Notes: a model not told the origin generated them from the sequence alone. A DNA stretch of 64,000 nucleotides from an uncultured Chlorobiota bacterium (GCA_900696645.1 CAADGV010000043.1:1-64000); one strand, 5' to 3'. Numbered from the stretch's first letter, positions 1-27,263 are shown. Program-made: numbers and translations.

Positions 1-3000
1 CAGGCTGATACCGGTTGAACGCATGCGTCACGGGGCTGAACGGCGCCACCGTCGATGAACGCCAGCCGCTGTCGCCTGCTGCAATATACGTCGACCAACC
101 TGCCGGCGGGAAGACGCCGCTCTCGAAATCTTCAAACAACACAACGCCGGGAAGTGCCGGAGTATACTCGTCAGCACCGATGTCGGGTGTTGTGGCGTTT
201 CGCGTGTCGCCATCGATGTCAACCGTGATGGCTGCAATGGGCGTGCCCGCATTGCTCACAACACTCGGCTGTGACGGATCGATATGAAGATCCGATGCAG
301 CATTCACAAAGAACGGATCGCCATTGACGCTGTTAAGATCCTGGCCGGTAAAGGTTCTCCATCCCGTAAGGTCGGGAACATCCGTCGTACCCTGGCGGGC
401 AAGAACACCGTTCGGCCCTGACACAAAATAGTCGTTATAGTCAATCGTACCAAATGTCGTTGCCGTACTCACGGCGTAGATTGCATACGCTTTGCTTGCT
501 CCTTCTCCCGTAAGTGAATTGGAGAAGATGTTGTTGCGCATATCAAGTCCGGTCGCCGTGGAAACGGTAACAATAAATGCCGAACTCAGGTTTGTCGTTC
601 CTGTACCAAAGAACGATCCTGTGAGACTGACACTGTTGTAGTATATCTTGTGGTTTGTTCCGCCTGCAATGCGGATACCGTACGGATTGCTCAGTGTACT
701 TGTTCCGCCTCCGTTGCTCCGCAGGTCGGAAATCATGTTGTTGGCAACCAGATTGTTTGTCGAGCCTGTGGCGGTGTTGAAATTAATACCGACAGCACCG
801 GCCGCTGTACCGGCAAACATTGAATGGAGTTTCCTGATTGTGTTGCCGGCAATCGTGGCATTACTCACGTTCACGTCAAGATGAATGCCGGTAACCGCCA
901 GGTTCGTTGACTGAATGATGTTGAAAATAGTGTTACCCGCAACCATCGCCGAGTCGGTATTGCCGATTTCAATGCCGCGATAGCTAACCTCGTATCCCGG
1001 AACATCGGAGCCGATGATGTTGTTGCGTACGATCAGACCCGTCTGAATGCCGGTTGTGGCGACACCGCGTGTATACACAGCGAAGCGCATGCGCTCGAAC
1101 GTGTTGTTCTCAACAACAAGATTGTTGTTGTGCGCACCGGTTCCGGTGCTGGTGATGGTTTGCCCGGCAGCGTACACACCCATAACATTAGTGGTATCGT
1201 TCCGTCCGGCCACAAGTTTGCTGTTCTTGATCGTGATATTCTCGGCGCCGGCATTCGTGCCGAGACTCGCCAACCAGATAATGCCCGAGTTTGTGGACTG
1301 CGAAATGTTTGCCAGCGTGAGATTCTTTGATGTCCCACCGGAATTCGAACCATCAATCATAATATTGTCGGCACCGTTGAACTTCATCAGGAAGCCTGCA
1401 ATATCACCCGACACCGTGGGCGATGCACCGGAAGCAGGCTTGATGGTCACGGTAAACGGACCGCCGGCCCCGTAGCGAACCGGATCCAGTTCAGCCGATG
1501 CAGGCTCGGTTGTTCCTTCATTAAGAATGGAAAGAGTAACATTGCCTGTAAGCACGGCACCATTGATGGCGTCAAATGCCGCCTTCAGACTGGAGTAGGT
1601 GCCTGTTGCTGTGCCAACTGTGTATGTGCCACCTGCAATAGTACCGAGCGCTCTGTAGCTGCTCGGATTTGTTGGTGGAATGGACGCTGCAGGCGGGTTG
1701 GTCGTGAAGCCTCCTGCACCGACAGACGGGAATACACCCACGTTGTTCAGGCTATCCTGCGCAGCGATGTAGTAATACACCGTATCGCCGCTAACTGTAC
1801 CGGCACCGAATGAGAAAGTGAAGTCGTTACCACTCACATACGTACCTGTTGCGCCGGTGTACGTTCCGCCGCTGTTGATCTTCCAGTACAATACGGGCCG
1901 ACCGATTCCGGTTGTAGGTACGCCCGAAAGATCGGAAATGGCCGCCGTAAGTACCTGAACCGTCCCGGCAGAAACATCACCCACCGGAGTGTAGATGATC
2001 GAGGGAGGAGTCAAGTCTGCACCAATTCCCGCAAACTCATCTGCGCCAATGTCGGGTGAAGTTGCGTTGCGCAGATTGCCGTCAAAGTCCTGCGTTATCG
2101 CGATTGGAGCAGTAACGGGTGTTCCGCCGCTTTCCAACTGTGTCGGCACTGCAGGATTGATATGGAGGTTATACGGCGTTGTGGCCGCATTGATGAACGG
2201 CGGGTTTTCGCCAATAGAATTGGCATCGCGAGGAGCAACACGTGCCTTGAACGCCGCAAGTGTGGAGTCGGCATTCGTTACGCCTGCCAATGTTCCTTCT
2301 CCATAGAAGTACCGGCGTTCGCCTGCCGCTGTATTCACATAGAAGTCGTTATTATTCGATTCAGCCGCGTAGCTCGTCAACGTTGCGCTGGACCTTCGGT
2401 ACGCAACCGTTCCGCCGCCGGTCGGGCCGGGCGTGGAGAGATTCACGACCACGTTGTTCCGCAAATCCGATATCGGGCCGGTATTCATGAAAATACCCGA
2501 CGTTCCGAAATTTGTTGCCGATGTACTTGCAGCATTCAGGAATATAGTATTGTAGAAGAGACCAATGTAGCTTGTGGTCGTCGTAGCCGTGACGTTGATA
2601 CCCGCGACAGCATTGTTCGCAATCGAGTTCTCCGCACGGATATCGGAAATATAGTTGTTGTAGATAAATGTACTGTCGGATGTGCCGAGCCGCGTAATAC
2701 CAAATGCGCTCGCTGTTGTGGTCGTGCCGGTGGTAGCAATATTCCGGATAGTGTTATTGAAAATCCGGTATGCAATGCCGGTCTGCACATTGATGCCGGT
2801 TGCAGTTCCCGACGCTCCACCCGTGACCAGCGAGTCAATCAGGTTTCCGCTGATTTCCGTATTCTGTGCAGTCGTTACCGACGAGAGGTTTATACCATAG
2901 AGAGAGCCGGAGTTCGAGGCGATGTTTCTGATAATATTGTTCCGGATTCGCAAGTTAACGGGGTTGCTGATTTGGTAGATTCCATACACTGCCCCCGTAC

Positions 3001-5155
3001 CCGGCGATGAGCTGTTCCCCATGTTGTTATTTTCAATATGAAGGTTCAGGGGATAGTTGGAAGTTGTATAGATGAAGTAAATCGTTCCGGTCGTTGTACC
3101 CGTCCGGTTGACACTCAGCGTGTTGTTTGTCACGCTTTGAGTGTTGGTCGTGCCGGTCGTTGCGCCTGTTTGCAGGCTGATACAAGCAACCTGTGACGTT
3201 GTTCCCTCGTTGGTCAACGAGATGTTATTACCGTCAATTGTCACGTCGGTATTGATGCCTGCACCGAAGAATACGCCATAGACTGTTCCAGTGCCTCCGG
3301 AACCGCCCGTAATGGTATTATTCTTGACGGAAACAGAATCCTGATAAATGCCATACACGGCATAGGCAATAGAGGTGCCGCCTGCAAAGTCACTGATTGT
3401 GTTGCCGTTAGATGGCGCACCGACTTCATTTCCATTGTCAAAGAACTCGTAGGGTGCCGTGGTGTGAGCAAATCCGCGCAACAGAACAGCGCCATAGGCA
3501 TTTGAAAACGTATTGCCGTAAATCTTGACGTTCTCACTGCGTCCGCCTGTGGAGGTCACCGTTGCGTTAGTCGTTCCCGAGATATTGGTAACACCAATAC
3601 CGAACGAATAGATGGCTGCTTTGTTCAGCGTAATTGTGCAGTTCTTGATTGTTATGTTCTTGCAGGCATCGTCGCCTGAGAATTTCTTCAAGTAGTAGCC
3701 ATATTCCATCATTCCGACGCCGGTAAATGTCGGGTCAGTCTGCAAGTCAATTCCGTCGAACGTGATGTAGTCGCCGCCGTTAATAATGACGATACCGTCG
3801 CCGTGATTGCCAACCGTTGTTGACGACGCGACTGTTCCGGGGTTTAGCGGAACGATCTTGGGATTTGCCCCGACCCCGCTCTTCTGGAAGACGATCTGAT
3901 CGGCCGAAGTGCCGCTTGCTGTGATTTCCGGCGGGTTCTCGGTAAATGTCTGTCCCGCACTGACGTTAAATATAATGCCTCCTACCGGAACTGGACCCGC
4001 ATTGAGGGCAGTAATGGCATCTGTGAATGAGTTGTAGTTATCGCCGCCTGTCGGGATCGTGTTATTGATGGTCTTCACCACTGCGCTCGATCCCGCAACG
4101 GGTGCAAAGGCGATTCCGCGAAACGCCGTACTTGCGGCCGCTGTTGCAAGCGTCGTCGCGGTGCTCGCCGCTCCCGTGTCAATTACCTGAATCAACACGC
4201 TGGTGGTTGTGTTTGCATAGATTACAGGATTCGCTCCGCTCCAGTCCACTATCAGGCCGCGTACGGAGGTTGTTGTTGTTCCGTTATTCAAAAGGATGTA
4301 GGCCAGGCTCCACGTTCCGGCACTGAGCGTCCATTTCTGGATGCCGCCGCCGTTTGCTACTGTCCCGTCATCCGCCATGTACAGTGTGTTGCCATCAGGG
4401 CTGATGGCAAAGCCGTAGTTGCTGTGCGTGCCGGTTGTCGGCAAACCGGGCAGCAGGGTCACGATTTGGCCATCGGTTGTCGGCAGGCCCGTTCCAACCG
4501 TATTCACACCCAGATTTGCGCCCGTTGCGCTTGAGGTATACAACTGGCCGTTAAAGACATTCACCCACCGCATGTTGGTTGTGGTGGTATGAAGGCCTGT
4601 CGTTGTGGTCGAGCCGAGGGTCGTGTAGCGGGTACCCGCCGAGGCACCCTGGCCCGAACCGCCGTTGCCGGTTACCCAGATATTCGTGCCGTCCGTTGAA
4701 ACTGCGCCGCGAATATTACTTCCGTTGAACGCATCCGTCAATCGGGTTGTTGCGTTGATGACTTCCATCGCATCCACTCGTGCAACAACTCGGTTCAGCG
4801 TGTCGGCATAGGCGGTTGTCACGCCCGCTGTTCCAGCATCCCTGTCATAGCCTGTAAAAAACAGGTATTGCCCGTTCGTGGATCGGGTCATCCCTCCTTC
4901 ACTGGTCGCCGAGCCTGAAAGAGTCACTCTACCCGGTCCAGTTGACGGAATAGTAACAGTTTGTACGAGTGTACCCGTTGTTGTGTACTCGTCCAGAAAA
5001 GCGGCGGTGGCGTTACTGCTCAACGCCCCCGAGCCGTCGCCGACTCTGAGTATGACGATATTCCCGTTCGTGAACTGCCCCCACCCTGTTGTCACAGGCG
5101 CAAGCAACACAAGAACGAGGACTGAAAAAATGAACAATGCGTGAGCTTTCTTCAT
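1..5155 (-). CDS. Giant secreted surface protein, partial (C-terminus beyond left edge): signal peptide, propeller-like N-terminal region, right-handed beta-helix-type repeats, start of a cleaved-adhesin/choice-of-anchor-J-like domain
   Basis: Manual minus-strand translation is open from ATG at 5155 (MKKAHALFIFSVLVLVLLAPVTTGWGQFTNG...) to position 1 (...GVVLFEDFESGVFPPAGWSTYIAAGDSGWRSS...THAFNRYQP). Many N-x-I/F-x-x-I/N-N-N-x-I beta-helix-like repeats; DIGADE[F/Y] motif twice. Absent from the ORF track, presumably because it has no stop in the window. Confidence 0.88.
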   Translation of the reverse strand, partial: MKKAHALFIFSVLVLVLLAPVTTGWGQFTNGNIVILRVGDGSGALSSNATAAFLDEYTTTGTLVQTVTIPSTGPGRVTLSGSATSEGGMTRSTNGQYLFFTGYDRDAGTAGVTTAYADTLNRVVARVDAMEVINATTRLTDAFNGSNIRGAVSTDGTNIWVTGNGGSGQGASAGTRYTTLGSTTTTGLHTTTTNMRWVNVFNGQLYTSSATGANLGVNTVGTGLPTTDGQIVTLLPGLPTTGTHSNYGFAISPDGNTLYMADDGTVANGGGIQKWTLSAGTWSLAYILLNNGTTTTSVRGLIVDWSGANPVIYANTTTSVLIQVIDTGAASTATTLATAAASTAFRGIAFAPVAGSSAVVKTINNTIPTGGDNYNSFTDAITALNAGPVPVGGIIFNVSAGQTFTENPPEITASGTSADQIVFQKSGVGANPKIVPLNPGTVASSTTVGNHGDGIVIINGGDYITFDGIDLQTDPTFTGVGMMEYGYYLKKFSGDDACKNITIKNCTITLNKAAIYSFGIGVTNISGTTNATVTSTGGRSENVKIYGNTFSNAYGAVLLRGFAHTTAPYEFFDNGNEVGAPSNGNTISDFAGGTSIAYAVYGIYQDSVSVKNNTITGGSGGTGTVYGVFFGAGINTDVTIDGNNISLTNEGTTSQVACISLQTGATTGTTNTQSVTNNTLSVNRTGTTTGTIYFIYTTSNYPLNLHIENNNMGNSSSPGTGAVYGIYQISNPVNLRIRNNIIRNIASNSGSLYGINLSSVTTAQNTEISGNLIDSLVTGGASGTATGINVQTGIAYRIFNNTIRNIATTGTTTTASAFGITRLGTSDSTFIYNNYISDIRAENSIANNAVAGINVTATTTTSYIGLFYNTIFLNAASTSATNFGTSGIFMNTGPISDLRNNVVVNLSTPGPTGGGTVAYRRSSATLTSYAAESNNNDFYVNTAAGERRYFYGEGTLAGVTNADSTLAAFKARVAPRDANSIGENPPFINAATTPYNLHINPAVPTQLESGGTPVTAPIAITQDFDGNLRNATSPDIGADEFAGIGADLTPPSIIYTPVGDVSAGTVQVLTAAISDLSGVPTTGIGRPVLYWKINSGGTYTGATGTYVSGNDFTFSFGAGTVSGDTVYYYIAAQDSLNNVGVFPSVGAGGFTTNPPAASIPPTNPSSYRALGTIAGGTYTVGTATGTYSSLKAAFDAINGAVLTGNVTLSILNEGTTEPASAELDPVRYGAGGPFTVTIKPASGASPTVSGDIAGFLMKFNGADNIMIDGSNSGGTSKNLTLANISQSTNSGIIWLASLGTNAGAENITIKNSKLVAGRNDTTNVMGVYAAGQTITSTGTGAHNNNLVVENNTFERMRFAVYTRGVATTGIQTGLIVRNNIIGSDVPGYEVSYRGIEIGNTDSAMVAGNTIFNIIQSTNLAVTGIHLDVNVSNATIAGNTIRKLHSMFAGTAAGAVGINFNTATGSTNNLVANNMISDLRSNGGGTSTLSNPYGIRIAGGTNHKIYYNSVSLTGSFFGTGTTNLSSAFIVTVSTATGLDMRNNIFSNSLTGEGASKAYAIYAVSTATTFGTIDYNDYFVSGPNGVLARQGTTDVPDLTGWRTFTGQDLNSVNGDPFFVNAASDLHIDPSQPSVVSNAGTPIAAITVDIDGDTRNATTPDIGADEYTPALPGVVLFEDFESGVFPPAGWSTYIAAGDSGWRSSTVAPFSPVTHAFNRYQP

Positions 5156-5510
5156 GATTCCTCCATGAATATGCTGAGATGAATGTAAGTGTTGATGTGA
5201 GATATGTGAGTGTGCCCCGGATTGTGACCGGGCACGCAAGCGTGCAGACAAGAAGGTTATAGTATCTTTCACAACTCCTCTGTATGAAGTGTGGAACAAC
5301 AACCCGACTTGATTGTAATTGAGAGGAATGAACCCCCTAAACCAATACAACGTGAAGTATATTTGCCCTTCCCTGCATTGCCTTGCGTCGTTCCCGAAAT
5401 AACAGGTTGAGGTTAGAGTAAGAGTTTTGATGCGATCCGGGAGTCTGACTGCGTGATATTAACTTAGCAATGCATAGCGAGAGATGCAAGAAAAATCTCC
5501 CCGAAATACA

Positions 5511-5536
5511 AAGAGGCTTGATTGCTCAAGCCTCTT
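5511..5536 (-). terminator. Rho-independent terminator downstream of the 5595-7346 gene
   Basis: Inverted repeat aagaggcttg-attgct-caagcctctt; on the minus strand followed by TTTGTATTTC. Confidence 0.65.
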
Positions 5537-5594
5537 TACAGTTACCGCACACAGTACGGACAGTTACATAGATGTGTGGCGTTGATGTCCCAAC

Positions 5595-7346
5595 TTATTT
5601 CATCAATACCATCTTCTTTGACTCCTGATACGAGCCTGCTGACATTTTATACACATACACTCCGCTCGGAAGTTTTGCTCCGTCAAATGTTACTTGATAC
5701 GAACCGCGCGAAAGGTTCTCGTTCAGTAACGTCGCCACTTCCTGACCGAGCAGATTGTACACTTTGATGCTGACAAGTCCCGCCTGCGCAACCGTGTAAT
5801 CGATCTTGGTTGATGGATTGAAAGGATTCGGGTAGTTCTGGTTCAACTTGAACGAGTTGGCAACCGTGCCCCCCTCACCCACGCTCACCGGAGGTATCGG
5901 AAGCCGGTAGAACACTTGTCGTGTTCGTGAAGGACGGGCTCCTAAGTCTGGCGTGGCAATCACATACGAACCCGGCTCGGGATCCTCCTGCCATGTCAGG
6001 TTAACAAACCCGGCGGGGTTCCAACGCGACACGCTGGGGAACCGTTCGTCGAGATTCGGCGTGTTAGTAAGATTCACCGGAGCGCTCCACGTCACCCCGT
6101 TATTCTCCGAACGTGAATAGAAGAGATCACCGTAGTTCAGCCCGTTCGAAGCGGTGTCGTTCGTCATCGCCTGATACACAATCACGAGTGTATTGCCTGA
6201 TTTGGCAATCACCGGCCAACCGATGTTCAGGTGATTCGATTGTCCAGTCATTGGAGGTACTTTCACGTTCGGCGTATTCGTCGTATTGCCAACGACAACA
6301 TATCCTGTTGCCTGGCTCCAAAAGAGAATTTGTCCCTGATTGTTTCTTGGCGAAGTCAGGTTCTGTTCACCGAGAGCCATGAGCGGCGTGTTGCCATCCC
6401 AAAGAAAATCAGACCCAACCCAAAGGCGAAACGTATCTGTTGCTGTTTCTCTGCCGGGAGGCGAAATGGGATATATTTGCTGGGCATTTACACTCCAAGA
6501 TTCACCGTTGTTTGTCGAAACATGCCACCAAGCGCCCGCAGTAGTTGCACCGTTCAATAGCGTACCGACACGGCCGTTGTCATTCGCATACGTGGGGTTA
6601 CGCCCTCCCTGCCGATTGGTATCGGGAAACTGTTCCCAGTTAGACCATGAGGCGAAATCTGTTGTTCGCGTGCGAAGGAAGAAATACGGGATTGCCCCCG
6701 TGTTGAGAGAAGCAGTCATGACAACTGAACCATCCGATGGACCGGCGACGTTCGGCCAGATTGGCTGCAACGTCCCGGAAAGAGCTACAGTTGGCGGCGC
6801 ATTCAACTCACTGAACGCTCCGGCACCTTCGGGTGAATCAATGAAGGTAGTTGACTGTGTGCCCGAGATGGTACTGTGATTTGCAATTGCAGGCAATCCT
6901 GCGTTCGGGCCCTTCAACAACGTCAGGGTAGGAAAGCCGGACAGCCGTGATGGAACGCGGAGATTGTTGAAGTTATTCCAGGTTGTGCCGTTATCCGTGC
7001 TGAACGCGTAACCTGTCCGGCGGCTGGTGGCAAACGCCGCGGAATCTTCGGACAACATGTAGATGGCGTGGATATTACCGTTTGCCGGATTGACCTGGAT
7101 ATGTTGAACGGCTCCTCCGTTCGATTGGTAATCGTAGTACCCGCTAAGCGTTGTGTACGTTCCGACCACGGGGCGCGAAAACGGACTGATATTATCGGGC
7201 GTGATGGTTGTTGCATCGACCCGATCAAAAAGCTGCTCCGTTTCAACATGCGCGTTCTGCAACGGATTGCTTTTGCCGCCGGAGCCTGCAAAAGCGAACG
7301 TAACGACCAGGCACATCAGGCAAACAAGCAGTAGCCATCGTGTCAT
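5595..7346 (-). CDS. Secreted Asp-box (BNR-like) protein with T9SS type A sorting domain, paralog 1
   Basis: Signal peptide; Asp-boxes STDNGTTW, STNNGESW, SENNGVTW; C-terminus NYPNPFNPSTKIDYTV...GVYVYKMSAGSYQESKKMVLMK; GGAGG upstream of ATG. Confidence 0.9.
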   Translation of the reverse strand: MTRWLLLVCLMCLVVTFAFAGSGGKSNPLQNAHVETEQLFDRVDATTITPDNISPFSRPVVGTYTTLSGYYDYQSNGGAVQHIQVNPANGNIHAIYMLSEDSAAFATSRRTGYAFSTDNGTTWNNFNNLRVPSRLSGFPTLTLLKGPNAGLPAIANHSTISGTQSTTFIDSPEGAGAFSELNAPPTVALSGTLQPIWPNVAGPSDGSVVMTASLNTGAIPYFFLRTRTTDFASWSNWEQFPDTNRQGGRNPTYANDNGRVGTLLNGATTAGAWWHVSTNNGESWSVNAQQIYPISPPGRETATDTFRLWVGSDFLWDGNTPLMALGEQNLTSPRNNQGQILFWSQATGYVVVGNTTNTPNVKVPPMTGQSNHLNIGWPVIAKSGNTLVIVYQAMTNDTASNGLNYGDLFYSRSENNGVTWSAPVNLTNTPNLDERFPSVSRWNPAGFVNLTWQEDPEPGSYVIATPDLGARPSRTRQVFYRLPIPPVSVGEGGTVANSFKLNQNYPNPFNPSTKIDYTVAQAGLVSIKVYNLLGQEVATLLNENLSRGSYQVTFDGAKLPSGVYVYKMSAGSYQESKKMVLMK

Positions 7347-7504
7347 GGTTGACCTCCTTACTTTAGTGGATGAATGGGATTGAGAATCAGGATTGACCGA
7401 TAAAATGAACGTATTGGGCAGAATAAAAGCAAGAGAATCACTGGATTTTCGGTGTGTGATATGGCATTATGAATAGAACGCGGATGAGGCGATTGGAACT
7501 GTTA

Positions 7505-7562
7505 TTGATCCTGATTCACACATCAGTGCAGATCCGTATCATCAGTGTCATCTGTGTTCCAT
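7505..7562. repeat. Short degenerate intergenic repeat tract
   Basis: ctgattcacacatcagtgcagatccgtatcatcagtgtcatctgtgttccatt: imperfect ~11-12 bp units of the form (c)atc(a/t)gtgt. Confidence 0.35.
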
Positions 7563-7568
7563 TCTCAT

Positions 7569-7601
7569 AAAAAAAGGCGCAAGAGCTTCCGCCCTTGCGC
7601 C
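7569..7601 (-). terminator. Rho-independent terminator downstream of the 7627-9393 gene
   Basis: ggcgcaag...cttgcgcc stem (7576-7601), followed on the minus strand by a T7 run. Confidence 0.8.
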
Positions 7602-7626
7602 AATAGCGAAACGTGTACGTCGATCC

Positions 7627-9393
7627 TTATTTCATCAATACCATCTTTTTCGACTGTTGATACGCTCCGGCTGTCATTTTGTAGATGTAGACACCGCTCG
7701 ATAAGCGGGAGCCGTCGAACGTTGCCTGGTACGTTCCGGGAGAGACGTTCTGATTCACAACCGTTGCAACCTCCTGTCCGAGCATATTGTACACCTTGAT
7801 GCTCACCGGACCCGATTGTCCGACGGTATAATCGATATTCGTAGTCGGGTTGAAGGGATTAGGATAATTCTGGCTGAGCTTGAACGAATTCGCCAATCCT
7901 GCACCCCCCTCATCAACCGATGTTGTGAACTGAATCGGGTTTACGCGCAGAAACATCTGGTACGTCCGGATCGTGTCCGGCGCAGGAGGCTGTCCGCTGC
8001 CCGGAAATGCGTACAAACCACTTCCGCCTGTTTTTTGCGACCAGACCATATTGAACTCACCCGGTGCATTCCATTTCGAAACGCTCGGATACTTCTCGTC
8101 GGTTGTCGGGGTATTGGTGATGCGTTGCGGAGCGCCCCAAGAGGCACCGCCGTTTGATGACGCAACATACCACAAATCGCCGTAGTGCCAGCCATGACGA
8201 TCCGTGTCGGGTTGGAATGCCTGGTACGCGACTACGATAGTATTTCCCGAAAGCCCGATCGAGGGCCAACCATGGGAATCACGGTGGAACCTTTGGTTCA
8301 AGGGATCGACCGTGTATTTTGTCGAATCGAACGGCACCGCCACAACGAAGCCCGTTGCCTGACTCCAGAAAATAATATCCGCATCGCCCACAAATCCTTG
8401 ATCAACCTTGAACTCGCTGAAGATCATGAGCGGATTCTCGCCATCATAAACAAAATCGGCATGAACATACGAGAAGAATGTATCTGCCCCGACAATTCGC
8501 TGACTGAGAACATTGGTTGGGGCACTCCACGTTACGCCGTTGTTCGTTGATTCTCTCCATCGATTCCCCAGAACTGCTGTGCCGTTCGAGGTATTCCATA
8601 AAATGCCGACCTTTCCGGTATTGTTCGCGTGAACCGGGTACCGTCCGCCGCTCTGAACCTCGCCGGGGAACGTCGTCCAAGTCGGATCCCAGGTCGTAAA
8701 ATCATTCTGCATTCGGTTGTGATGGCCTACTCCTGTTGTCAGGTTCTGGTCATTCTGCGAAGCGGCGACGATCATGGAACCGTCACTCGCGCTACCGACA
8801 AACGGCCAGATTGGCTCAAGTGCCTGTCCGAGTATGGGTGGTGAATTCAATTCGCTGAAGGCTCCCGCGCCTTCCGGCGAGTCGACGAAGAGCTTGGCAA
8901 TAGTCGGCGTTCCGTCCGGATGGCTTGCGATTACGGGCAGACCGGCATTTGCGCCCTTCAGCAAGTCGATTGTCGGAAATCCCGATCGCGACAGCGGCAC
9001 CGTAATGTTGTTGAAGTTGTTCCAAGAGACGCCGCCGTTGGAGCTGAACGCATAGCCAACGCGTCTGCTTGCATTCAGGCCTGCCGTGGAATCCGTGGCA
9101 AGCATGTAGACGACGTGAATGTTTCCGTTGGCAGGATTGACCCGAATGTGCTGCACCGCTCCGCCGTTGGATTGGTAATCATAAAAACCCGTCAGGGTTG
9201 TGAATGTCCCGACAGTTGGCGTCAGTCTCGACCAATCCGGCTCCGGAGCGCGGTTGATCGGAACATTCATATCAACAGGCTGGCGTTCATTCGGGATTGC
9301 TTCGGGAACCGGCCGTTTTCTTTCACCGCCTGCGAATGCAAGCGAAACCGTCAATACACTGAGCAGACTCAGCGATAAGAACTTTCTCATCAT
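7627..9393 (-). CDS. Secreted Asp-box protein with T9SS type A sorting domain, paralog 2
   Basis: Start chosen at MMRKFLSLSLLSVL (CGGAGGT just upstream) rather than the track start 9432. Asp-boxes SSNGGVSW, STNNGVTW, SSNGGASW; C-terminal NYPNPFNPTTNIDYTV...YKMTAGAYQQSKKMVLMK. Confidence 0.9.
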   Translation of the reverse strand: MMRKFLSLSLLSVLTVSLAFAGGERKRPVPEAIPNERQPVDMNVPINRAPEPDWSRLTPTVGTFTTLTGFYDYQSNGGAVQHIRVNPANGNIHVVYMLATDSTAGLNASRRVGYAFSSNGGVSWNNFNNITVPLSRSGFPTIDLLKGANAGLPVIASHPDGTPTIAKLFVDSPEGAGAFSELNSPPILGQALEPIWPFVGSASDGSMIVAASQNDQNLTTGVGHHNRMQNDFTTWDPTWTTFPGEVQSGGRYPVHANNTGKVGILWNTSNGTAVLGNRWRESTNNGVTWSAPTNVLSQRIVGADTFFSYVHADFVYDGENPLMIFSEFKVDQGFVGDADIIFWSQATGFVVAVPFDSTKYTVDPLNQRFHRDSHGWPSIGLSGNTIVVAYQAFQPDTDRHGWHYGDLWYVASSNGGASWGAPQRITNTPTTDEKYPSVSKWNAPGEFNMVWSQKTGGSGLYAFPGSGQPPAPDTIRTYQMFLRVNPIQFTTSVDEGGAGLANSFKLSQNYPNPFNPTTNIDYTVGQSGPVSIKVYNMLGQEVATVVNQNVSPGTYQATFDGSRLSSGVYIYKMTAGAYQQSKKMVLMK

Positions 9394-9478
9394 TGCATAC
9401 CTCCGACTTTGGTTAAAATATGGTTGACTCATTTGAAATCAAGCAAATAGTCCAGCTAAATACAAGAGCGGACCTGAC

Positions 9479-9513
9479 AAAAAAAAAAAACGTAGCGACC
9501 CGGGGCCGCTACG
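9479..9513 (-). terminator. Rho-independent terminator downstream of the 9568-11298 gene
   Basis: cgtagcg-acccggggc-cgctacg stem followed on the minus strand by a ~12-T run. Confidence 0.85.
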
Positions 9514-9567
9514 CGATAGGTGAAAACGACAACGCTTCTGAAACTGAATGATAAAGGACAGCCGTTC

Positions 9568-11298
9568 TTACTTCATCAATACCATCTTCTTCGACTCTTG
9601 ATACGAACCAGCCTGCATCTTGTAGATATACACGCCGCTCGGCAGATTGGCCCCGTCAAAAGTCGCCTGATACGATCCGGCAGCGAGATTCTCATTCAGA
9701 ACCGTTGCGACTTCCTGGCCCAGCATGTTGTACACCTTGATGCTCACCGGACCGGCTTGCCCGACCGTGTAATCGATCTTCGTTGCGGGATTGAACGGAT
9801 TCGGGTAGTTCTGGCTCAACTTGAATGAGTTGACGGTTTCCGAACCCCCTACGCTCGTCGTCCCGAATACAATCGGATTGATTCGCATGAACACTTGTGA
9901 GGAACGTACAGTGTCTGCCGCGCCGGGAAACGCATACAAGCCGCTTTTGCTCTTCTGTCCCCACACGATATTGAACTCACCCGGCGCGTTCCATTTCGAA
10001 ACGCTGGGATAACGTTCATCAACGTTCGGTGTGTTGGTAATACGTTGCGGCTCACCCCACGTGTTGCCGCCGTTGGACGAAGCTACATACCACAAGTCAC
10101 TATAGTGATACCCTCTGCTGTCGGTATCCGGCTGGAAGGCCTGATACGCTACAACAATGGTGCTGCCCGACAAACCGATAGAGGGCCAGCCAAGGCTGAG
10201 GCCGTGGAAGCGCTGGTTAACAGGATCGAACGTGTATTTCGTCGGATCATGCAGTGCGGCAATCTTGAACCCTGTAGCCTGACTCCAGAATGAAATATTA
10301 TCATCTTCCCGGCCCACATTCAAGATGTATTCAGAAAACACCATCAGCGGGTTGTTTCCATCATAGACGAAATCACTATGGACGTATGAGTTGAACGTAT
10401 CTGCTCCCGCAAAACGCTGGCCATACATATTGGTTGGCGTGCTCCATGTTTCCCCGTTGTTTGTGGACTCCATCCACCAGTTGCCGAGCGCCGCAGTACC
10501 ATTCGATGTATTTGCAAGAACACCAACACGCCCCGTACCATTAGCTTGCGTAGAGTATCGACCTCCACTCTGCGTTGGCCCGATGATTTGCGTCATCGGT
10601 GACCAGGCGGCAAAATCTGCGGTGCGGGTCCAGTGAACCGTTGCGGCAGTACTTCGGGAAGCGGACATGACAACAGAACCGTCTGCAGGTCCGGCAACAT
10701 ACGGCCAAATGGGCTCATCACTTCCCAGCAATGTCGGGGAGTTGATTTCTGAAAACGCCCCGGCTCCTTCCGGGGAGTCGATAAACACTGTCGAAGCAAT
10801 GTCGGGCCCGATCACACTGTGATTGGCAATCGCCGGAAGACCTGCATTGGGTCCCCTCAGCAAGTCGATTGTAGGAAAGCCCGAACGTCGCGAAGGAATG
10901 CGGGCGTTGTTGAAATTATTCCAATTAGCGCCACCGTTGCTGCTGAACGCGTACGACGTGCGGCGTCCGGTGTTGAGCCCGCTCGCAGTCGAGTCTTCCG
11001 ACATCATGTACGTCACATGAATGTTGCCGTTCGCGGGATTCACGCGAATGTGTTGTATAGCGCCGCCGTTTGACTGGTAATCGTAGAACCCGGTCAACGT
11101 GGTAAACGTGCCGACGGTTGTCGTCAATTCTGACCAATCAACCTCTTGCGCACGGACAGTCGTGTTTTCAAAACTCGCCGTGCGGTCTTCCTTCAGCGGC
11201 TCCTGGAACGACATCTTTCCCTTCTTCGAGTCGCCTGCGTATGCCAGTGACGCGAGAAGGCCAACTACTGCAACAAGAAAGAGTAGTTGTTTCTTCAT
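9568..11298 (-). CDS. Secreted Asp-box protein with T9SS type A sorting domain, paralog 3
   Basis: MKKQLLFLVAVVGLLASLAYAG signal; Asp-boxes SSNGGANW, STNNGETW, SSNGGNTW; C-terminal NYPNPFNPATKIDYTV...YKMQAGSYQESKKMVLMK. Confidence 0.9.
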   Translation of the reverse strand: MKKQLLFLVAVVGLLASLAYAGDSKKGKMSFQEPLKEDRTASFENTTVRAQEVDWSELTTTVGTFTTLTGFYDYQSNGGAIQHIRVNPANGNIHVTYMMSEDSTASGLNTGRRTSYAFSSNGGANWNNFNNARIPSRRSGFPTIDLLRGPNAGLPAIANHSVIGPDIASTVFIDSPEGAGAFSEINSPTLLGSDEPIWPYVAGPADGSVVMSASRSTAATVHWTRTADFAAWSPMTQIIGPTQSGGRYSTQANGTGRVGVLANTSNGTAALGNWWMESTNNGETWSTPTNMYGQRFAGADTFNSYVHSDFVYDGNNPLMVFSEYILNVGREDDNISFWSQATGFKIAALHDPTKYTFDPVNQRFHGLSLGWPSIGLSGSTIVVAYQAFQPDTDSRGYHYSDLWYVASSNGGNTWGEPQRITNTPNVDERYPSVSKWNAPGEFNIVWGQKSKSGLYAFPGAADTVRSSQVFMRINPIVFGTTSVGGSETVNSFKLSQNYPNPFNPATKIDYTVGQAGPVSIKVYNMLGQEVATVLNENLAAGSYQATFDGANLPSGVYIYKMQAGSYQESKKMVLMK

Positions 11299-11426
11299 AC
11301 GTGTACCTCTATGATAAATGGTGAATGATTAGTGAAAGTGGACTTGCTGAGGATCGGGTGTTGATAAAGAAATGGATTGAAACGCTCAAAATCAAGCATC
11401 TTTCAATGATTTCTGAAAACAAAAAT

Positions 11427-11452
11427 GCGTGGCGGGGTATTTCCCGCCACGC
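11427..11452 (-). terminator. Rho-independent terminator downstream of the 11471-13204 gene
   Basis: gcgtggcggg-gtattt-cccgccacgc perfect 10-bp stem; minus strand continues ATTTTTG. Confidence 0.8.
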
Positions 11453-11470
11453 TCCGGAACACCTCTCGGG

Positions 11471-13204
11471 CTACCTGACCAGCATCATCTTCTTGGTTTC
11501 TGTAAACCGGCCTGCCTGCAGCTTGTAGTAATACACGCCGCTTGCAAGGTTATTGGCCGAGAAATCGGCCTCGTACGTTCCCGCAGTCCTGAATTCGTTG
11601 ACCAATGTGACCACTTCCTGGCCAAGCGTGTTGTACACTTTCAACGACACTTCTGAGCCGACAGGCAACGTGTATGCTATTTTGGTTGAAGGATTGAACG
11701 GATTGGGGAAATTCTGCCCAAGCCGGAACGCATTTGGCAAACCAGCTTCCTCGGGCGCGCTTGTCAGCGTCAGGCGCAGATATACCTGTCGTGCCCGGGC
11801 AGCTAAGTTGTTATCCGGGTTCGCAACGGAGAATGTACCCGGCTGCGGGTCTTCCTGCCACGTAATATTCACTATTCCGGCCGGATTCCATTTCGAGATG
11901 CTCGGATAGCGTTCGTCAAGGTTCGGTGTGTTGGTGAGATTCACAGGCGGAGCCCATGTAACACCGTTATTGTTCGATACAGAATAGAAAATATCGCCGT
12001 AATTAAATCCCGCAGCGGATGTATCCGTCGTAAATCCCATCCACACAACAACAATAGCCGAACCCGACAGGCCGATCGCCGGATATCCCATCGCAAAGTG
12101 ATTGGTCTGAGCTCTGTTCAGTTCCGCCGTTACACCCGGTGTTGAGGCACGATTTGCGACCTTTACAAAATCGGTTGCCTGGCTCCAAAAGGTAATTTGC
12201 TCGTTGAATGTCGTTTCATTCGCTCCGACGTTGAGCTCGTTCAGCACAACATAGGCATTGTTGCCCGAGTACACAGCATCGCAGCCGGTCCACGACTGGA
12301 ATGTATCAACACCGGCAATGCGAGTCGGCGGATGCAAGACCGTCTGGGTTGCGGGCCATGTTTCGCCGCTGTTCGTCGATTCCAGCCAATCAACTCCAAG
12401 ATTTACCTTGTTCATCAAATAGCCAACCCGGCCTGTGGAACTTGAGGCCACGGAGTAAAAACCGCCATTATCTCCACCACCGGGAAATTCAGTATAGGGA
12501 ACCCAAGTGGAGAAATCTGTAGTTCGTGTATAGTGTGCAGTCGTTGCAACCACGGATCGGGAGGAGAGCATATTCACAGAGCCGTCGGCTCCGGCGGCAA
12601 TATACGGCCAAATCGGTTCGTCGCCGCCGCCGAGCGGTGGAGGCGTGTTGAGTTCAGAAAACGCGCCTGCTCCTTCCGGAGAGTCGATGTACACAACAGA
12701 TGTAAGATCCGCTCCGACGACATTGTGATTTGCGATTCCGGGAAGACCGGCGTTAGGACCTTGAAGAAGATCGAGCGTCGGGAAACCGGAACGACGAGAC
12801 GGAACGGTAAGATTGCTGAAGTTATTCCACGACACGCCGTTGTTCGTGCTGAAGGCATACGATGTACGGCGGCCAGTATTGAAATTGATGGAATCGTCGG
12901 CAGTCATCATGATCACATGAATGTTACCGTTTGCCGGATTCACCCTGATGTGTTGGGCTGCCCCGCCGTTGCACTGATAGTCGTAGAATCCGCCAAGCCC
13001 GGTGTACACCCCGACAGTAGCCTGCGGGCTTGTACGGGTGTCGCGAACAACAACCACGGGCGGATTGACATCCGCCGGCATGTCAACAACGTTGGCGGGA
13101 AGAGCCGGCACGCCTGCCTGTTTTTTGCTGCCGGCTGTCGCCTCTTCAGGTGCAAAGGCGGCAACAATGCCGAGTACAACGAGAGATGTAATGGTTTTCT
13201 TCAT
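11471..13204 (-). CDS. Secreted Asp-box protein with T9SS type A sorting domain, paralog 4
   Basis: Start moved to MKKTITSLVVLGIVAAFA (AAGGAGAG upstream). Asp-boxes STNNGVSW, STNSGETW, SNNNGVTW; C-terminal NFPNPFNPSTKIAYTLP...YYKLQAGRFTETKKMMLVR. Confidence 0.9.
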   Translation of the reverse strand: MKKTITSLVVLGIVAAFAPEEATAGSKKQAGVPALPANVVDMPADVNPPVVVVRDTRTSPQATVGVYTGLGGFYDYQCNGGAAQHIRVNPANGNIHVIMMTADDSINFNTGRRTSYAFSTNNGVSWNNFSNLTVPSRRSGFPTLDLLQGPNAGLPGIANHNVVGADLTSVVYIDSPEGAGAFSELNTPPPLGGGDEPIWPYIAAGADGSVNMLSSRSVVATTAHYTRTTDFSTWVPYTEFPGGGDNGGFYSVASSSTGRVGYLMNKVNLGVDWLESTNSGETWPATQTVLHPPTRIAGVDTFQSWTGCDAVYSGNNAYVVLNELNVGANETTFNEQITFWSQATDFVKVANRASTPGVTAELNRAQTNHFAMGYPAIGLSGSAIVVVWMGFTTDTSAAGFNYGDIFYSVSNNNGVTWAPPVNLTNTPNLDERYPSISKWNPAGIVNITWQEDPQPGTFSVANPDNNLAARARQVYLRLTLTSAPEEAGLPNAFRLGQNFPNPFNPSTKIAYTLPVGSEVSLKVYNTLGQEVVTLVNEFRTAGTYEADFSANNLASGVYYYKLQAGRFTETKKMMLVR

Positions 13205-13306
13205 GTTGCTCTCCTTGGTGATGTAATTGATAAAGAAGGACCGGTGACCAATACCGTGACCCGTAAACGAAGATGTAGTCATGGGAATTCCCCCCCTGTC
13301 TCTCCC

Positions 13307-15046
13307 CTACTTCACGACTGCCATCTTCTTTGTGGCCTTGAATTGACCGGCTTCCAACGTATAGTAATACACGCCGCTTGAAAGCCTATCTGCCACAAAA
13401 TCCACCTCATAGCTTCCGGCTGTTTTGTAGCCATTGACCAACGTTGCCACTTTCTGGCCCAACGTATTGTAGACGTTCAGGGATACGTCCGAAGCCGCAG
13501 GCAGACTGTACACAATTCTGGTTGACGGATTGAACGGGTTGGGATAGTTCTGCTCAAGCCGATACGCGGTCGGGGCAAATTCCCCGGATCCGGCACTGCT
13601 TCCCGTAAGCGCTGTCTTGATGAATACCTGCCGCGTCATCCGCACAGTTGCTCCCGGATCGCCGATAATGTTTCCGCCGGCTTCCGGATCCTCCTGCCAG
13701 ACAATGTTCGCAAAACCGGGCTCGTTCCACGAAGAAACCGACGCAAACCGGTCATCAAGGCCGGGGGAATTCGAAAGGTTGCGTGGCGTTGACCAGCTTA
13801 CACCACCATTCGTTGAGTAGACCATCCAAATATCATTGTTATTGTAGCCATTTGCCGCTGTATCGTTCTTCATCATGGCTTGGTAGGCAATAACAATTGC
13901 GTTTCCCGACATCCCAATAGAAGGCATATCCACTGTGATCGTATTCAATGTTGCGCGATTCTCATTCGGGCTGACATTCGGCATGTCAACTTTCGAGGCT
14001 GCAACTACGAAACCGGTAGCCTGACTCCAGAAAGTAATCTGCGCGCTGTCAGTCGGAGCATTCAGTCCAATATTCGCCTCTGCGAAAGCAACAAGCACAT
14101 TGTTGCCATTGTACACAAGGTCCGACCCGAGAACATAGGTAAACGTATCAGGACCGGCGATTCTGGTTGTTCCGACAATCTGTGTTCCCTGTGCGGGCCA
14201 CGTCACACCGTTGTCCGTGGATTCGAGGTAATAGATGCCATTATCACCGGCAAACGATGTATTGAGCAGAATGGCGACTCGCCCGTTTCCGTTTGCTTTC
14301 GTAGGAAGTCCGGCACTCGCTGCGGGCAGAGGATTGCCCCACGGCGACCAGGTTGTGAAATCCGATGTCATTGTATGGTGCCCGGTATTTGCGGTGCTGC
14401 GTGATGCGCTCATGACAATTGAACTGTTGGCCGTTCCGGCAACCATCGGCCAGATGGGCTCATCGCCGCCCCCGATAATCGGCGGAAGGCTCAACTCCGC
14501 AAATGCCCCCGAGCCGGGAGGTGCATCGACAAAGACGACCGAGGTGAGGTCAGTACCTGCAACATTGTGATTCGCGATAATCACGCCTTCTACCGTACCT
14601 TGAAGCATATCCAACGACGGATAACCCGAACGCCGGCCCGGTACAACGAGATTGTTGAACGTATCCCACGTTTGACCGCCCGTGCTGCTGTACGCGTAAT
14701 TTGTTCTTCTCGTCGATCCGGTCGGATCGGCTGAGTCGGATGCTGTCATGAAAATGACATGGATCTTGTTGCCGGTTGCATCCGATTTGTCAAGGCGGAT
14801 ATACTGGCATGCTCCCGCATTGACTTGATAATCAAAATAGCCCTGCAACCCGGTGTAGGTTCCAGCCAACGATCTCGTCAGGGGTGAGAATGGAGGAGGA
14901 GTGTAGCGTACATCCATGTCAACTTCAACCCGCTCGTTGGGAAGGGCTTTTGCAAGATGCTTCTGACTATTCCCTGCATATCCGATACTCATCGAAAAAA
15001 TAACCAGAACACACAACGTATAATACAATGGAAGCCGTGAATTCAT
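13307..15046 (-). CDS. Secreted Asp-box protein with T9SS type A sorting domain, paralog 5
   Basis: Signal peptide; Asp-boxes SSTGGQTW, STDNGVTW, STNGGVSW; C-terminal NYPNPFNPSTRIVYSLP...YYTLEAGQFKATKKMAVVK. Confidence 0.9.
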   Translation of the reverse strand: MNSRLPLYYTLCVLVIFSMSIGYAGNSQKHLAKALPNERVEVDMDVRYTPPPFSPLTRSLAGTYTGLQGYFDYQVNAGACQYIRLDKSDATGNKIHVIFMTASDSADPTGSTRRTNYAYSSTGGQTWDTFNNLVVPGRRSGYPSLDMLQGTVEGVIIANHNVAGTDLTSVVFVDAPPGSGAFAELSLPPIIGGGDEPIWPMVAGTANSSIVMSASRSTANTGHHTMTSDFTTWSPWGNPLPAASAGLPTKANGNGRVAILLNTSFAGDNGIYYLESTDNGVTWPAQGTQIVGTTRIAGPDTFTYVLGSDLVYNGNNVLVAFAEANIGLNAPTDSAQITFWSQATGFVVAASKVDMPNVSPNENRATLNTITVDMPSIGMSGNAIVIAYQAMMKNDTAANGYNNNDIWMVYSTNGGVSWSTPRNLSNSPGLDDRFASVSSWNEPGFANIVWQEDPEAGGNIIGDPGATVRMTRQVFIKTALTGSSAGSGEFAPTAYRLEQNYPNPFNPSTRIVYSLPAASDVSLNVYNTLGQKVATLVNGYKTAGSYEVDFVADRLSSGVYYYTLEAGQFKATKKMAVVK

Positions 15047-15276: not shown

Positions 15277-16383
15277 CTAAAATCCCAACCCTACAGTGAA
15301 CACGTGATTGTTCTCCAAGAACTTGACAGAACGAAATGCGTAGTCGAACGACACATTGAGCGAACCGACCGGATATCGAAGACCTGCACCCGCGGAGAAC
15401 CCGAAAATATGGGCACTCCGGTCCACGGCATCGTTTGATGGTATTGCCGCACTTTTTGTAATGTCCGAGAATGTATAACCGCCACGCAGGAAGAACGTGT
15501 TTGCATAATTGTATTCAAGGCCTGCCTTGTATTCGTCAGCGGAGAAATTGTTGTTCTGGAAGACGCCGCTGACCGTAATCATATTCTCTTCTGCCAATAC
15601 ATAATTGTACGCGAGGCCGATTTCAATTGTTGAAGGAAGATCAAATGATTCCGCATCGACTTTGTAGAACGAACCCGAGGCATTGCTGACGATCCCCTCG
15701 CGAATCAACCCGTCGCCATCAAACGACATGCGCGGGCCAAGATTTTTCACGGCAACCCCGACACTCAAGCCCGTCACGTTGGCGAGTCCGCTGTACTGCA
15801 CGCCGCCGGAAAATGCAACGCCGGTCGCAGACACGAGCCCGAATCGTTCGCTGATGAGTGTCGCCGACGCGCCGATCGAAATCCTGTCCGTCAACATGCG
15901 TGAGTAGGTCAAGCCGATATTCAGCAACGTCGGATTGATCATCTGCCCTGTTCCGTCGGGCTGATCCTCCGTCGTAACGGCAATCTCGCCTATGCCCACC
16001 GACTTGATGCTCAGTCCGAGACTTCCGAAGTCGCCAAATCGCGTACTGATTGCAACGTACTGAATGCCGATATCAGCGATGTAATTCATGTGAGAGAACA
16101 CGGCATTAGTTGCAAACTCGGCGCGGGCAAGGCCGGCGGGATTCCAGTACATTGCGTCGAGTCCCGTTGAAGTCGCAATCGAGGAACCTGCCATGGCAAT
16201 ATCGCGGGCGCCGACGGGAATCAGCAGTTCGGCTGCGGCGCTGTTGCCGACGCGGTTTTCGCCGCCTGCGAACGAAACCACTGACAGCACAAAATGCATC
16301 GCAACAAACAAGAAGGGGTTTATCAGCCATGTAGATTTTGAGAAGTCAGTATTCACATCTTTCACTATCAAGCGCGTTAACAA
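15277..16383 (-). CDS. PorV/PorQ-family outer membrane protein
   Basis: SAAAELLIPVGARDIAMAGSSIATSTGLDAMYWNPAGLA motif, beta-rich sequence, C-terminal VFTVGLGF. Exact start uncertain. Confidence 0.8.
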   Translation of the reverse strand: MLTRLIVKDVNTDFSKSTWLINPFLFVAMHFVLSVVSFAGGENRVGNSAAAELLIPVGARDIAMAGSSIATSTGLDAMYWNPAGLARAEFATNAVFSHMNYIADIGIQYVAISTRFGDFGSLGLSIKSVGIGEIAVTTEDQPDGTGQMINPTLLNIGLTYSRMLTDRISIGASATLISERFGLVSATGVAFSGGVQYSGLANVTGLSVGVAVKNLGPRMSFDGDGLIREGIVSNASGSFYKVDAESFDLPSTIEIGLAYNYVLAEENMITVSGVFQNNNFSADEYKAGLEYNYANTFFLRGGYTFSDITKSAAIPSNDAVDRSAHIFGFSAGAGLRYPVGSLNVSFDYAFRSVKFLENNHVFTVGLGF

Positions 16384-16439
16384 ACAAACTGTAATAATGT
16401 ATCCACCTACCTGTACTTTGTCAAGTCACAAGGCATTCG

Positions 16440-17679: not shown

Positions 17680-20247
17680 TTAGAACTCAAGCCGTGCGCC
17701 AACGCGAATGCGGCGCGGGTCGTAGTACGCGCCCGGATCGCCCAACTCTCCGCCAACACGTCCGTTGGAATCAAACCAACGTATGTTTTTCGCATTCAGC
17801 ACGTTGCGGGCATCGGCATACAACGTTAGATGGTAGAAATTGGGTTCGCAACCGAGCGCAAACTCCCTTCTCACTTTCAAATTGACAAACAGAACATCTT
17901 CCATCCGCGCATTGTTGGGGAGAAATGCCTTGGTGGAATCGAGCGGCGTATATCCGTCCCTCGTCGGGTAGAATGTGTACGGCCTCGGCGAATTGTAGAG
18001 AACGACGATATTCATCTGCATTCCCCAAAACAGACTGAAGTCAGCATCAGCTTTAATCGTATGACGTTGATCCCAGCTCAACGGATAGGGCCGCGCGACA
18101 AGCGGAAAACCCCATTGTGCAAGATTGATCGACTGATTGACATTATCACTCACCCCCTCCGTCACCATATAGGAGTACGAAATGGTGCCCGAGAATTTCT
18201 CCCCCCGTTCCTGGCTGATAACGAATTCCAATCCGTTCACCGTTGCCTGAGCATTGTTGACGTACGACGCAAATCCATAGTCACCCGCAGACTTGCTGTC
18301 GAACGGAATCAGCGTCTTCGAATCAATCTGGTTGGAGATCGATTTCCGGAAATACGTTGCTGATGCTACCACCGTGGGACTGATGCCGTGCTTGAATCCG
18401 GCCTCCCATGCAATCGTTCGCTCGGGTTCAAGGTCGGGATTCCCCGTCAGCACGCCGCGGGTTCCCGAACGGATCTGGGAGGGATTGATTCCGGAGTAGA
18501 GGTAGTCGAACAACGGATATTGGAAATACTGCCCGAAGTTTACATAGAAGAATGATGACGGGCCGACGGGAGCCGCAAAGGCTACACGCGGACTGAATTG
18601 ATGCTTGAATTTCACATTCGTTGTGCCGACAACGCGCTGTTCGTATTCATCCTGCCTGACCGGAATAAACTCGACGATTGGACGGGCAGCTCTTGTATCC
18701 AGAAAATCCCATCGAACACCAAAACTGAAACTCGAACCATCCCTCACAAACTCAATTTTGTCCTGAACATACACGCTGCCTGAACGGGGAGAGTAATTGT
18801 AAGAATTGCTGTAGTTCAAGAGTTCGGCGTTCTCAAGGGGTTTGCCGAAGTAGGTCAGTTGCGGCTCGAACTTCACAAGATCGGAAAGGATATTGTACTG
18901 GTGCAACTCAACGCCCGCTTTGACAATGTGCGACCTATCGATTTGTGCCGTGACATCAGCCTTCAACGTATATATCGTCTGCCGCGTATCTGCCCACCAA
19001 TGGCGCTTTCCGCCAACAATGTATCGCAGAAAGAAATCATATTCGTACGGCCGGAGATTCTGATCTGCGCCGATACGTTCTCCTATTTCCGAACGCTGAA
19101 AATATCGACTGACGCTGGCGGTATAGAACACGTTATCGGAAAGCGTATGAGAAAGCGTCAGGGCGAGGCGGTACGAATTGCGGTTCCGTGCAGGCAATCC
19201 CGGAAGATTGAACCGCCAACTGAACTCGTAGTCGCGCCAGTCGCGAAGCGAGTAAATGCCCTGAAGGGCAAGCCGCACCGACGGACTGATGATAGACTCC
19301 AGCTTGCTGAACCCGTTGAGTTCACTGATAACGCCGTCAACCCGAAACCGGTCGAAATCCCGCCACCATCGAGTGTCGCTCTTCGTGTACGTGTTCGCGG
19401 TGAAGTAATACAGCTTGGCAGGCACAATCGGACCGCCCGCTGTTATTTCCATTTCGGTCAGCCTATCCTGCTGTTCATTCACTCGTGTCGGGAGCAATCC
19501 GTCACTTTCAACCCGCCCGCCAATCTCGTGTTTGTCGGCACCGGTTTTTGTCACAACGTTGACAATACCCGACATGGCATTGCCGTACTGCGCTTCAAAT
19601 CCGCCGGTGTGAATTGTCATTCCGGTGATGGAACTTTTTGGTAGACCCGTTCCCAACCCTCCGCCAACAACATCCTGAACGGGAAGCCCATCAACAAGAT
19701 ACACAACCTCGTTGGTCTTGCCGCCTCGAACGTTTCCTTCGATTGTTGTTCCCGGCTGAAGGCCCAGCACTTCCTGGAATGCAACGACCGGCAGTTTATC
19801 GAGTTTCACTTCCCCGATGGAGAATGCAGTCGAAGGTTGGTCTTTTTGGATCAGCGGGCGTTCGGCGCGAACTTCCACCGCGTCCAATTCCACTGCCGAA
19901 GGATCCAATTGCATATCAATACGCGTTCGCAAGTCGGGCAGGATGGTGACGTTCTGCAGAATTACGGTGCGGTACCCGACGGAACTGAACTTCACGCTGT
20001 ACGTTCCTGCCCGGATATTGGCAATCACAAAGATGCCGTCTACATCGGCGGCGGCGCCGAGTTGAGTTCCCATCACGGTGACGTTTGCACCGATGATGTA
20101 TTGACCGGTGGCTTTGTCCGTCACGCGTCCTTCAAGCAATCCCGTTGTTCCCGCAAACAGGGAACTGCAGAACATCATGGTCAGCAGTACCCTGCCTGCG
20201 AGAACGGCAATTCCGTTTCGTTTTCGACTTATATCAGTATCGTTCAT
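17680..20247 (-). CDS. TonB-dependent receptor with N-terminal carboxypeptidase-regulatory-like domain
   Basis: LEGRVTDKATGQYIIGANVTVMGTQLGAAADVDGIFVIANI...; plug VYLVDGLPVQD...; C-terminal YYDPRRIRVGARLEF. Confidence 0.9.
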   Translation of the reverse strand: MNDTDISRKRNGIAVLAGRVLLTMMFCSSLFAGTTGLLEGRVTDKATGQYIIGANVTVMGTQLGAAADVDGIFVIANIRAGTYSVKFSSVGYRTVILQNVTILPDLRTRIDMQLDPSAVELDAVEVRAERPLIQKDQPSTAFSIGEVKLDKLPVVAFQEVLGLQPGTTIEGNVRGGKTNEVVYLVDGLPVQDVVGGGLGTGLPKSSITGMTIHTGGFEAQYGNAMSGIVNVVTKTGADKHEIGGRVESDGLLPTRVNEQQDRLTEMEITAGGPIVPAKLYYFTANTYTKSDTRWWRDFDRFRVDGVISELNGFSKLESIISPSVRLALQGIYSLRDWRDYEFSWRFNLPGLPARNRNSYRLALTLSHTLSDNVFYTASVSRYFQRSEIGERIGADQNLRPYEYDFFLRYIVGGKRHWWADTRQTIYTLKADVTAQIDRSHIVKAGVELHQYNILSDLVKFEPQLTYFGKPLENAELLNYSNSYNYSPRSGSVYVQDKIEFVRDGSSFSFGVRWDFLDTRAARPIVEFIPVRQDEYEQRVVGTTNVKFKHQFSPRVAFAAPVGPSSFFYVNFGQYFQYPLFDYLYSGINPSQIRSGTRGVLTGNPDLEPERTIAWEAGFKHGISPTVVASATYFRKSISNQIDSKTLIPFDSKSAGDYGFASYVNNAQATVNGLEFVISQERGEKFSGTISYSYMVTEGVSDNVNQSINLAQWGFPLVARPYPLSWDQRHTIKADADFSLFWGMQMNIVVLYNSPRPYTFYPTRDGYTPLDSTKAFLPNNARMEDVLFVNLKVRREFALGCEPNFYHLTLYADARNVLNAKNIRWFDSNGRVGGELGDPGAYYDPRRIRVGARLEF

Positions 20248-23742: not shown

Positions 23743-23767
23743 GGTCGTTTCTCCTTTGTTCTTATTG

Positions 23768-27178: not shown

Positions 27179-27225
27179 ATTGGGAACTCCTAGAATTAGT
27201 TGATTAAGTTTGAACATACTTTTCA

Positions 27226-27252: not shown

Positions 27253-27263
27253 CGGGTTGCACA

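Follow-up and report, generated by a model that had tools for sequence, protein, structure and literature searches.

The stretch of DNA analysed here, hereafter the window, comprises 64,000 nucleotides from an uncultured Chlorobiota bacterium. Between positions 5595 and 15046 it carries five complete, intact open reading frames on the minus strand (F1 to F5, Table 1), which occupy exactly the span that a preliminary description of this DNA had assigned to five adjacent paralogous genes. In a full-length alignment, the other four copies were 68, 55, 50 and 45% identical to the 576-aa copy, P0003. The encoded proteins share a layout in which a signal peptide-like start ending in A-G is followed by a short low-confidence stretch, a core of about 420 aa that holds three Asp-boxes and, last, a T9SS type A sorting domain. 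The motifs quoted in the preliminary description (DYQxNGG, FxDSPEGxGxFSE, EPIWP and ITFWSQATGF) are present in the array proteins, although some copies carry variant forms. Its three Asp-boxes per protein at equivalent places were also recovered, with three pattern matches in each protein (four in one) against a mean of 0.046 per protein in shuffled proteins; box 2 of F2 and box 1 of F1 are slightly degenerate.

Table 1. Features of the propeller array and its neighbourhood, with coordinates counted from the first nucleotide of the window.
Feature	Coordinates	Strand	Details
Possible terminator after F5	5510..5537	-	12-bp perfect hairpin
Propeller gene F5 (P0005, 583 aa)	5595..7346	-	Evidence: ORF, sorting domain, alignment
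Sorting domain of F5 (residues 505-580)	5607..5834	-	PF18962 E 1.8e-10
Terminator-like hairpin, F4-F5 gap	7576..7601	-	11-bp stem, T7 tail
Propeller gene F4 (P0004, 601 aa)	7627..9432	-	Evidence: ORF, sorting domain, alignment
Sorting domain of F4 (residues 523-598)	7639..7866	-	PF18962 E 4.3e-12
Terminator-like hairpin, F3-F4 gap	9490..9514	-	11-bp stem, long T tail
Propeller gene F3 (P0003, 576 aa)	9568..11298	-	AF2 mean pLDDT 80.8, pTM 0.75
Sorting domain of F3 (residues 498-573)	9580..9807	-	PF18962 E 5.5e-12
Terminator-like hairpin, F2-F3 gap	11427..11452	-	10-bp stem, T tail
Propeller gene F2 (P0002)	11471..13282	-	603 aa as opened; likelier start at 13204 (residue 27), giving 577 aa
Sorting domain of F2 (residues 525-600)	11483..11710	-	PF18962 E 6e-9
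Propeller gene F1 (P0001, 579 aa)	13307..15046	-	Signal peptide, predicted seven-bladed propeller and T9SS CTD; AF2 mean pLDDT 80.7, pTM 0.75
Sorting domain of F1 (residues 501-577)	13316..13546	-	PF18962 E 2.3e-8; TIGR04183
PorVa, PorV/PorQ-family outer-membrane barrel	15277..16383	-	NF033709 183 bits (cut-off 90), PF19572; true-PorV and PorQ models score it under their cut-offs; adjoins the array on its upstream side
Small secreted protein, 204 aa	16440..17054
Small secreted protein, 240 aa	17073..17795
TB2, TonB-type receptor with CarboxypepD_reg	17680..20247	-	PF00593 3.2e-27, PF13715
PIG-L-type protein, 764 aa	20301..22595		N-terminal PIG-L (de-N-acetylase) domain; C-terminal part weakly like DUF4350/DUF7408; kept in the sister species
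PorVb, second PorV/PorQ-family protein	22696..23808	-	NF033709 144 bits
T9_1195, 1195-aa secreted protein with T9SS CTD	23768..27355	-	TIGR04183 26 bits (cut-off 23); homologues adjoin propellers in many genomes
TB1, TonB-type receptor with CarboxypepD_reg	27264..30308	-	PF00593 6.7e-24, PF13715 7.5e-19, PF07715; homologues adjoin propellers
Large protein after the array	2..5350		Runs off the window; the sister species has a homologue in the equivalent position behind its array

A Pfam/NCBIfam scan of the five proteins gave no family over cut-off besides the T9SS sorting domain; BNR_2 (Pfam) came near, at 9.5e-7, under its cut-off. A PDB sequence search with one array member gave no match, and within the source genome (4.2 Mb, 46 contigs) the propeller core matches these five proteins only. 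No tandem DNA repeats were found in the array as a cause of copy-number change.

The T9SS type A sorting domain claimed earlier for all five proteins was recognized by both PF18962 and TIGR04183 over curated cut-offs. Further, the source genome encodes the T9SS core, with SprA at C6:84351 and a full PorU sortase (919 bits) adjoining PorV on contig C6, and about 145 other places in the genome match one full array protein, essentially through the sorting domain alone. This suggests that the export route of the array is the ordinary one for this genome, by which the five proteins are predicted to be T9SS-exported.

AlphaFold2 was run on P0003 and P0001 with 24-25 sequences as input. Both models are all-beta with identical strand order, and their strand pattern and fold matches are of propeller type, in keeping with the fold proposed earlier. 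The six blades then expected do not agree with the models, in which the strand order gives seven four-stranded sheets, the N-terminal strand (model residues 45-51) closing the ring and a beta-sandwich CTD following. From this secondary-structure strand order and the company of fold matches, the array propellers are predicted to count to seven blades; the closest folds by TM-score are likewise seven-bladed. The best TM-scores by target were those of the PLL/PHL lectins (PLL2/PLL3/PHL, mostly 0.58-0.66, best for P0001), alongside GH145 proteins (0.58-0.64), BACOVA_03493 (0.59-0.61) and the PL24/PL25 range (0.42-0.54, PL25 itself at 0.53-0.54). By query length, with the CTD counted, the scores were only 0.4-0.48, and identity to the best TM-score matches was 10-13%. 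PLL lectins are seven-bladed propellers. The GH145, PL24 and PL25 propellers are also seven-bladed (PMC8377490).

The lowest Foldseek E-values belonged to sialidases (P. aeruginosa pseudaminidase and Micromonospora sialidase), yet with high rmsd and TM-scores of 0.31-0.46. GH33 sialidases have an arginine triad. In 102 relatives of the array proteins only one Arg (R112, P0003 numbering) is nearly invariant, which indicates that the triad is missing from the array family. A GH33 sialidase reading was rejected on this ground, together with the seven blades by strand count and the lack of any Pfam/NCBIfam sialidase model over cut-off, and the earlier remark that no catalytic sialidase signature could be recognized is borne out. 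An 'RIP' in P0003 was similarly rejected as a sialidase RIP motif, as it sits after the first Asp-box and is missing from the other window copies.

What is conserved besides the Asp-boxes in the 102 relatives is a small set of residues in the first inter-blade loop and near strand ends, namely D73 (98%), N77 (92%), R112 (91%), D427 (87%), W198 (82%) and H160 (77%). By strand order, this set would sit at the place of a propeller's central pocket, consistent with a binding or catalytic site. If catalytic, the proteins would be polymer-cutting lyases or hydrolases on a seven-bladed fold, with D73, N77, R112, H160 and W198 as the active site, which cut a polymer imported by the TonB receptor described below. 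Such an enzyme is favoured by the near invariance of charged and polar residues, of which R and H persist in the most distant relatives too, and also by the fold matches to GH145 and PL24/PL25 enzymes and a weak profile match to PL25 (E 5e-4). However, PL24, PL25 and the fungal lyase FoRham1 have a base-acid His with a neighbouring His about 20 residues away (PMC8377490), and this pair was sought in the array family and is absent. Only H160 is well conserved, at a level that is low for a catalytic residue. An enzymatic role is possible, if rather unlikely.

Loop faces were assigned from the strand order of the models. Among 18 array members, mean pairwise identity was 0.41 in the assumed ligand-face loops, 0.67 in the opposite-face loops and 0.55 in the strands. 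Across the 102 relatives, the ligand-face loops as a group were no more conserved than the other face (permutation p = 0.97), the central set alone being conserved. This fits variable specificity across the wider family while falling short of proof.

The genes upstream of the array run in the order TB1, T9_1195, PorVb, PIG-L-type protein, TB2, two small proteins and PorVa, followed by the five propellers. The PIG-L-type protein lies in the middle of this outer-membrane set. The two small proteins look related to each other ('LSCKEPLP' near the start) and are possible lipoproteins; neither gave a convincing family match. For comparison with other genomes, 63 loci were picked by propeller match and not by their neighbours, 58 of them with enough sequence to inform. 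In 27 of the 58, the next gene downstream of the propeller or propellers, read in the same direction and at most 1 kb away (mostly 20-340 bp), encodes a TonB-type receptor (CarboxypepD_reg-type homology). Behind that receptor, where sequence allows, there is usually a homologue of T9_1195 of about 1100-1190 aa and then a PorV-family protein. The other 31 informative loci have no receptor directly downstream; they include the window, where all the parts are there in another order with extra genes between. A same-genus genome shows the contiguous order of receptor, ~1060-aa protein, PorV and four propellers. Judged by gene order, the array belongs to a recurring TonB receptor/secreted protein/PorV gene set, which the preliminary description had overlooked. 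No paper on point concerning the propeller family or this set in Ignavibacteria was found in the library searched.

The source genome has nine PorV-family genes, one of which is the canonical porV beside porU. Of the eight non-canonical genes, seven are no more than about 5 kb away from a TonB-type receptor with CarboxypepD_reg, and the two are often separated by a gene for a large secreted protein of unrecognized family (L121-L125 and window 15277-30308). At other sites of this genome where PorV-family genes lie near TonB-type receptors, the cargo is different and includes putative peptidases and a CBM20-CTD protein. Type B cargo/PorP-like pairs (SprF/SprB) show FadL-type barrels to be capable of retaining a T9SS cargo at the cell surface (PMC9143113), and by analogy the PorV-family paralogues here could be surface anchors for T9SS cargo. 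The propellers might themselves be accessory parts of T9SS cargo attachment that work with the local PorV-family protein in the manner of PorZ, which consists of propellers and a CTD. PorZ (5m11) is among the fold matches, and PorV-family genes adjoin the array and related loci. This explanation is nevertheless quite improbable: none of the five proteins matches the NCBIfam PorZ model, TM-scores to PorZ are 0.11-0.27, and the copy number and loop variation are ill-suited to a housekeeping part.

T9_1195 and its sister-species orthologue (L041:7198-10767) are 82-98% identical to residue ~720, followed by about 20% identity over ~300 residues (about 750-1080) before the CTD. Its neighbours, the receptor and PorVb, share 97-99% identity with their counterparts in the sister species. 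Residues about 750-1080 are, on this alignment, a swapped or very fast-changing putative surface domain. Profile searches found no convincing structural homologue of T9_1195.

Each of the five propellers has a one-to-one orthologue in the sister species, where the gene order is unchanged and a sixth copy closes the array. Since this sixth copy groups with a copy from a third species of the genus, the ancestor probably had it and the source genome lost it. Orthologue dN/dS values against the sister species were 0.035-0.093, which suggests that every array copy has been kept under constraint; with whole-gene values below 0.1, no recent positive selection was seen between the two. On sequence comparison, the array paralogues are older than the compared species and all of them are constrained.

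Among the terminator-like hairpins of the region, the three strongest follow F2, F3 and F4, each in the intergenic gap, the total hairpin count being at chance level. With these and the possible terminator after F5, most copies probably have their own transcripts. A promoter scan of the array region gave no more matches than in shuffles. A hairpin of its own for most copies, T9SS surface display and several diversified copies with variable loops would also suit proteins for adhesion to cells or surfaces, or for a cohesion layer, with no link to uptake. Such a role is unlikely, given the recurring TonB-receptor linkage and a single propeller per protein without repeats or stalk domains.

A profile of the five cores matched 141 of 391 class genomes at E 1e-3, many of the weakest matches probably being to the Asp-box only; at E 1e-20, in a sample of 396 genomes taken across the phylum, it matched 13. 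The family is found across the source's class (Ignavibacteria-type genomes) and in Chloroherpetonaceae, with named relatives in Ignavibacteriae MAGs from groundwater, Ignavibacteria MAG SZUA-525, and Chloroherpetonaceae and Thermochlorobacteriaceae MAGs. Tandem copies occur in 22 of the 63 loci, and in most genomes that have the family a locus holds 1-3 copies. Most genomes of the source's own taxonomic family (f1) are without it. In family f2 of the same order (L051, L056, L064), ORFs of ~1310-1330 aa join the propeller to a long C-terminal extension of unrecognized kind.

Several similar surface proteins in a row could also form an S-layer-like structural coat. The high expression expected of a coat was not seen in codon adaptation, a weak test, by which the array genes score 0.68-0.71, like their neighbours and under the 0.73-0.79 of ribosomal and elongation-factor genes. 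The usual 1-3 copies per locus, the absence from most of family f1 and the separate terminator-like hairpins also argue against a coat, which is highly improbable. Among the three options offered in the preliminary description (adhesin, glycan binding or S-layer-like coat), glycan binding fits best and the coat is disfavoured.

Linkage to a TonB receptor suggests substrate capture by the propellers, and the company of fold matches points to sugars as the ligand. Taken with the precedent for barrel anchors, these lines of evidence place polymer binding for uptake first, an enzyme second and an adhesin third. The five genes are tentatively read as encoding T9SS-exported surface propellers of seven blades that would serve a TonB-receptor/PorV-family module by binding polymers outside the cell, most probably glycans, a reading that may almost as well be right as wrong. 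The genes, their sorting domains, the T9SS core of the genome, the predicted fold, the loop pattern and the recurring neighbourhood are direct results of the analysis; we infer the surface location, the binding, a glycan as ligand and the cooperation with the receptor. Each array protein would be made with a signal peptide, cross the outer membrane via the T9SS through its CTD and be held at the surface. There a site common to all copies would be built from D73, N77, R112, H160, W198 and D427 at the propeller centre, and the ligand of the individual copy would depend on the variable loops of the same face. Captured material would be taken up by the neighbouring TonB-type receptor, with the ~1100-aa T9SS protein as its surface partner and the PorV-family barrel as anchor.

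Among known propellers, the PLL/PHL lectins of Photorhabdus resemble the array proteins as sugar-binding propellers of similar size, with TM-scores by target up to 0.66. Identity is 9-12%, however, and sugar binding is a feature of the lectins but a prediction for the array proteins; to our knowledge, PLL/PHL lectins are without a T9SS CTD. GH33 sialidases likewise have Asp-boxes (BNR repeats), but six blades against the seven counted here, in addition to the arginine triad. The GH145/PL24/PL25/PL42 enzymes share the seven-bladed fold and a single propeller domain, and some members have a BNR-type motif (PMC8377490). They differ in the catalytic His pair, at about 10% identity and TM-scores by query below 0.5. 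In GH145 the catalytic His is on the posterior face (His48 of BT3686).

As regards gene sets, SprF/SprB and the PorP-like anchors are similar in pairing T9SS cargo with its own FadL-type barrel. In contrast, the array proteins have type A CTDs and PorV/PorQ-family barrels, and are paired with them by gene neighbourhood only. A wider proposal, doubtful at present, is an uptake system without SusD. In it the propellers would capture the ligand, and a TonB receptor would cooperate with T9SS-exported proteins that a dedicated barrel of the PorV family keeps in place. Such a system would be the counterpart in Ignavibacteria-type bacteria of the SusCD of Bacteroidia, and tandem copies would widen its polymer range. 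A study of paddy-soil MAGs reported susCD to be scarce in gene clusters of Ignavibacteriales and found none in those of Ca. Kapabacteria (PMC10576277). Should the set be an uptake machine, polymer feeding in SusCD-poor lineages would be accounted for and the PorV paralogues would gain a role; one such set recurs alongside these propellers throughout a class of bacteria that are for the most part uncultured. SusC/SusD and polysaccharide utilization loci likewise combine a TonB-type receptor with CarboxypepD_reg and surface proteins. Here, however, none of the window proteins scanned matched SusD, and the partners of the receptor are T9SS-exported proteins and a PorV-family barrel.
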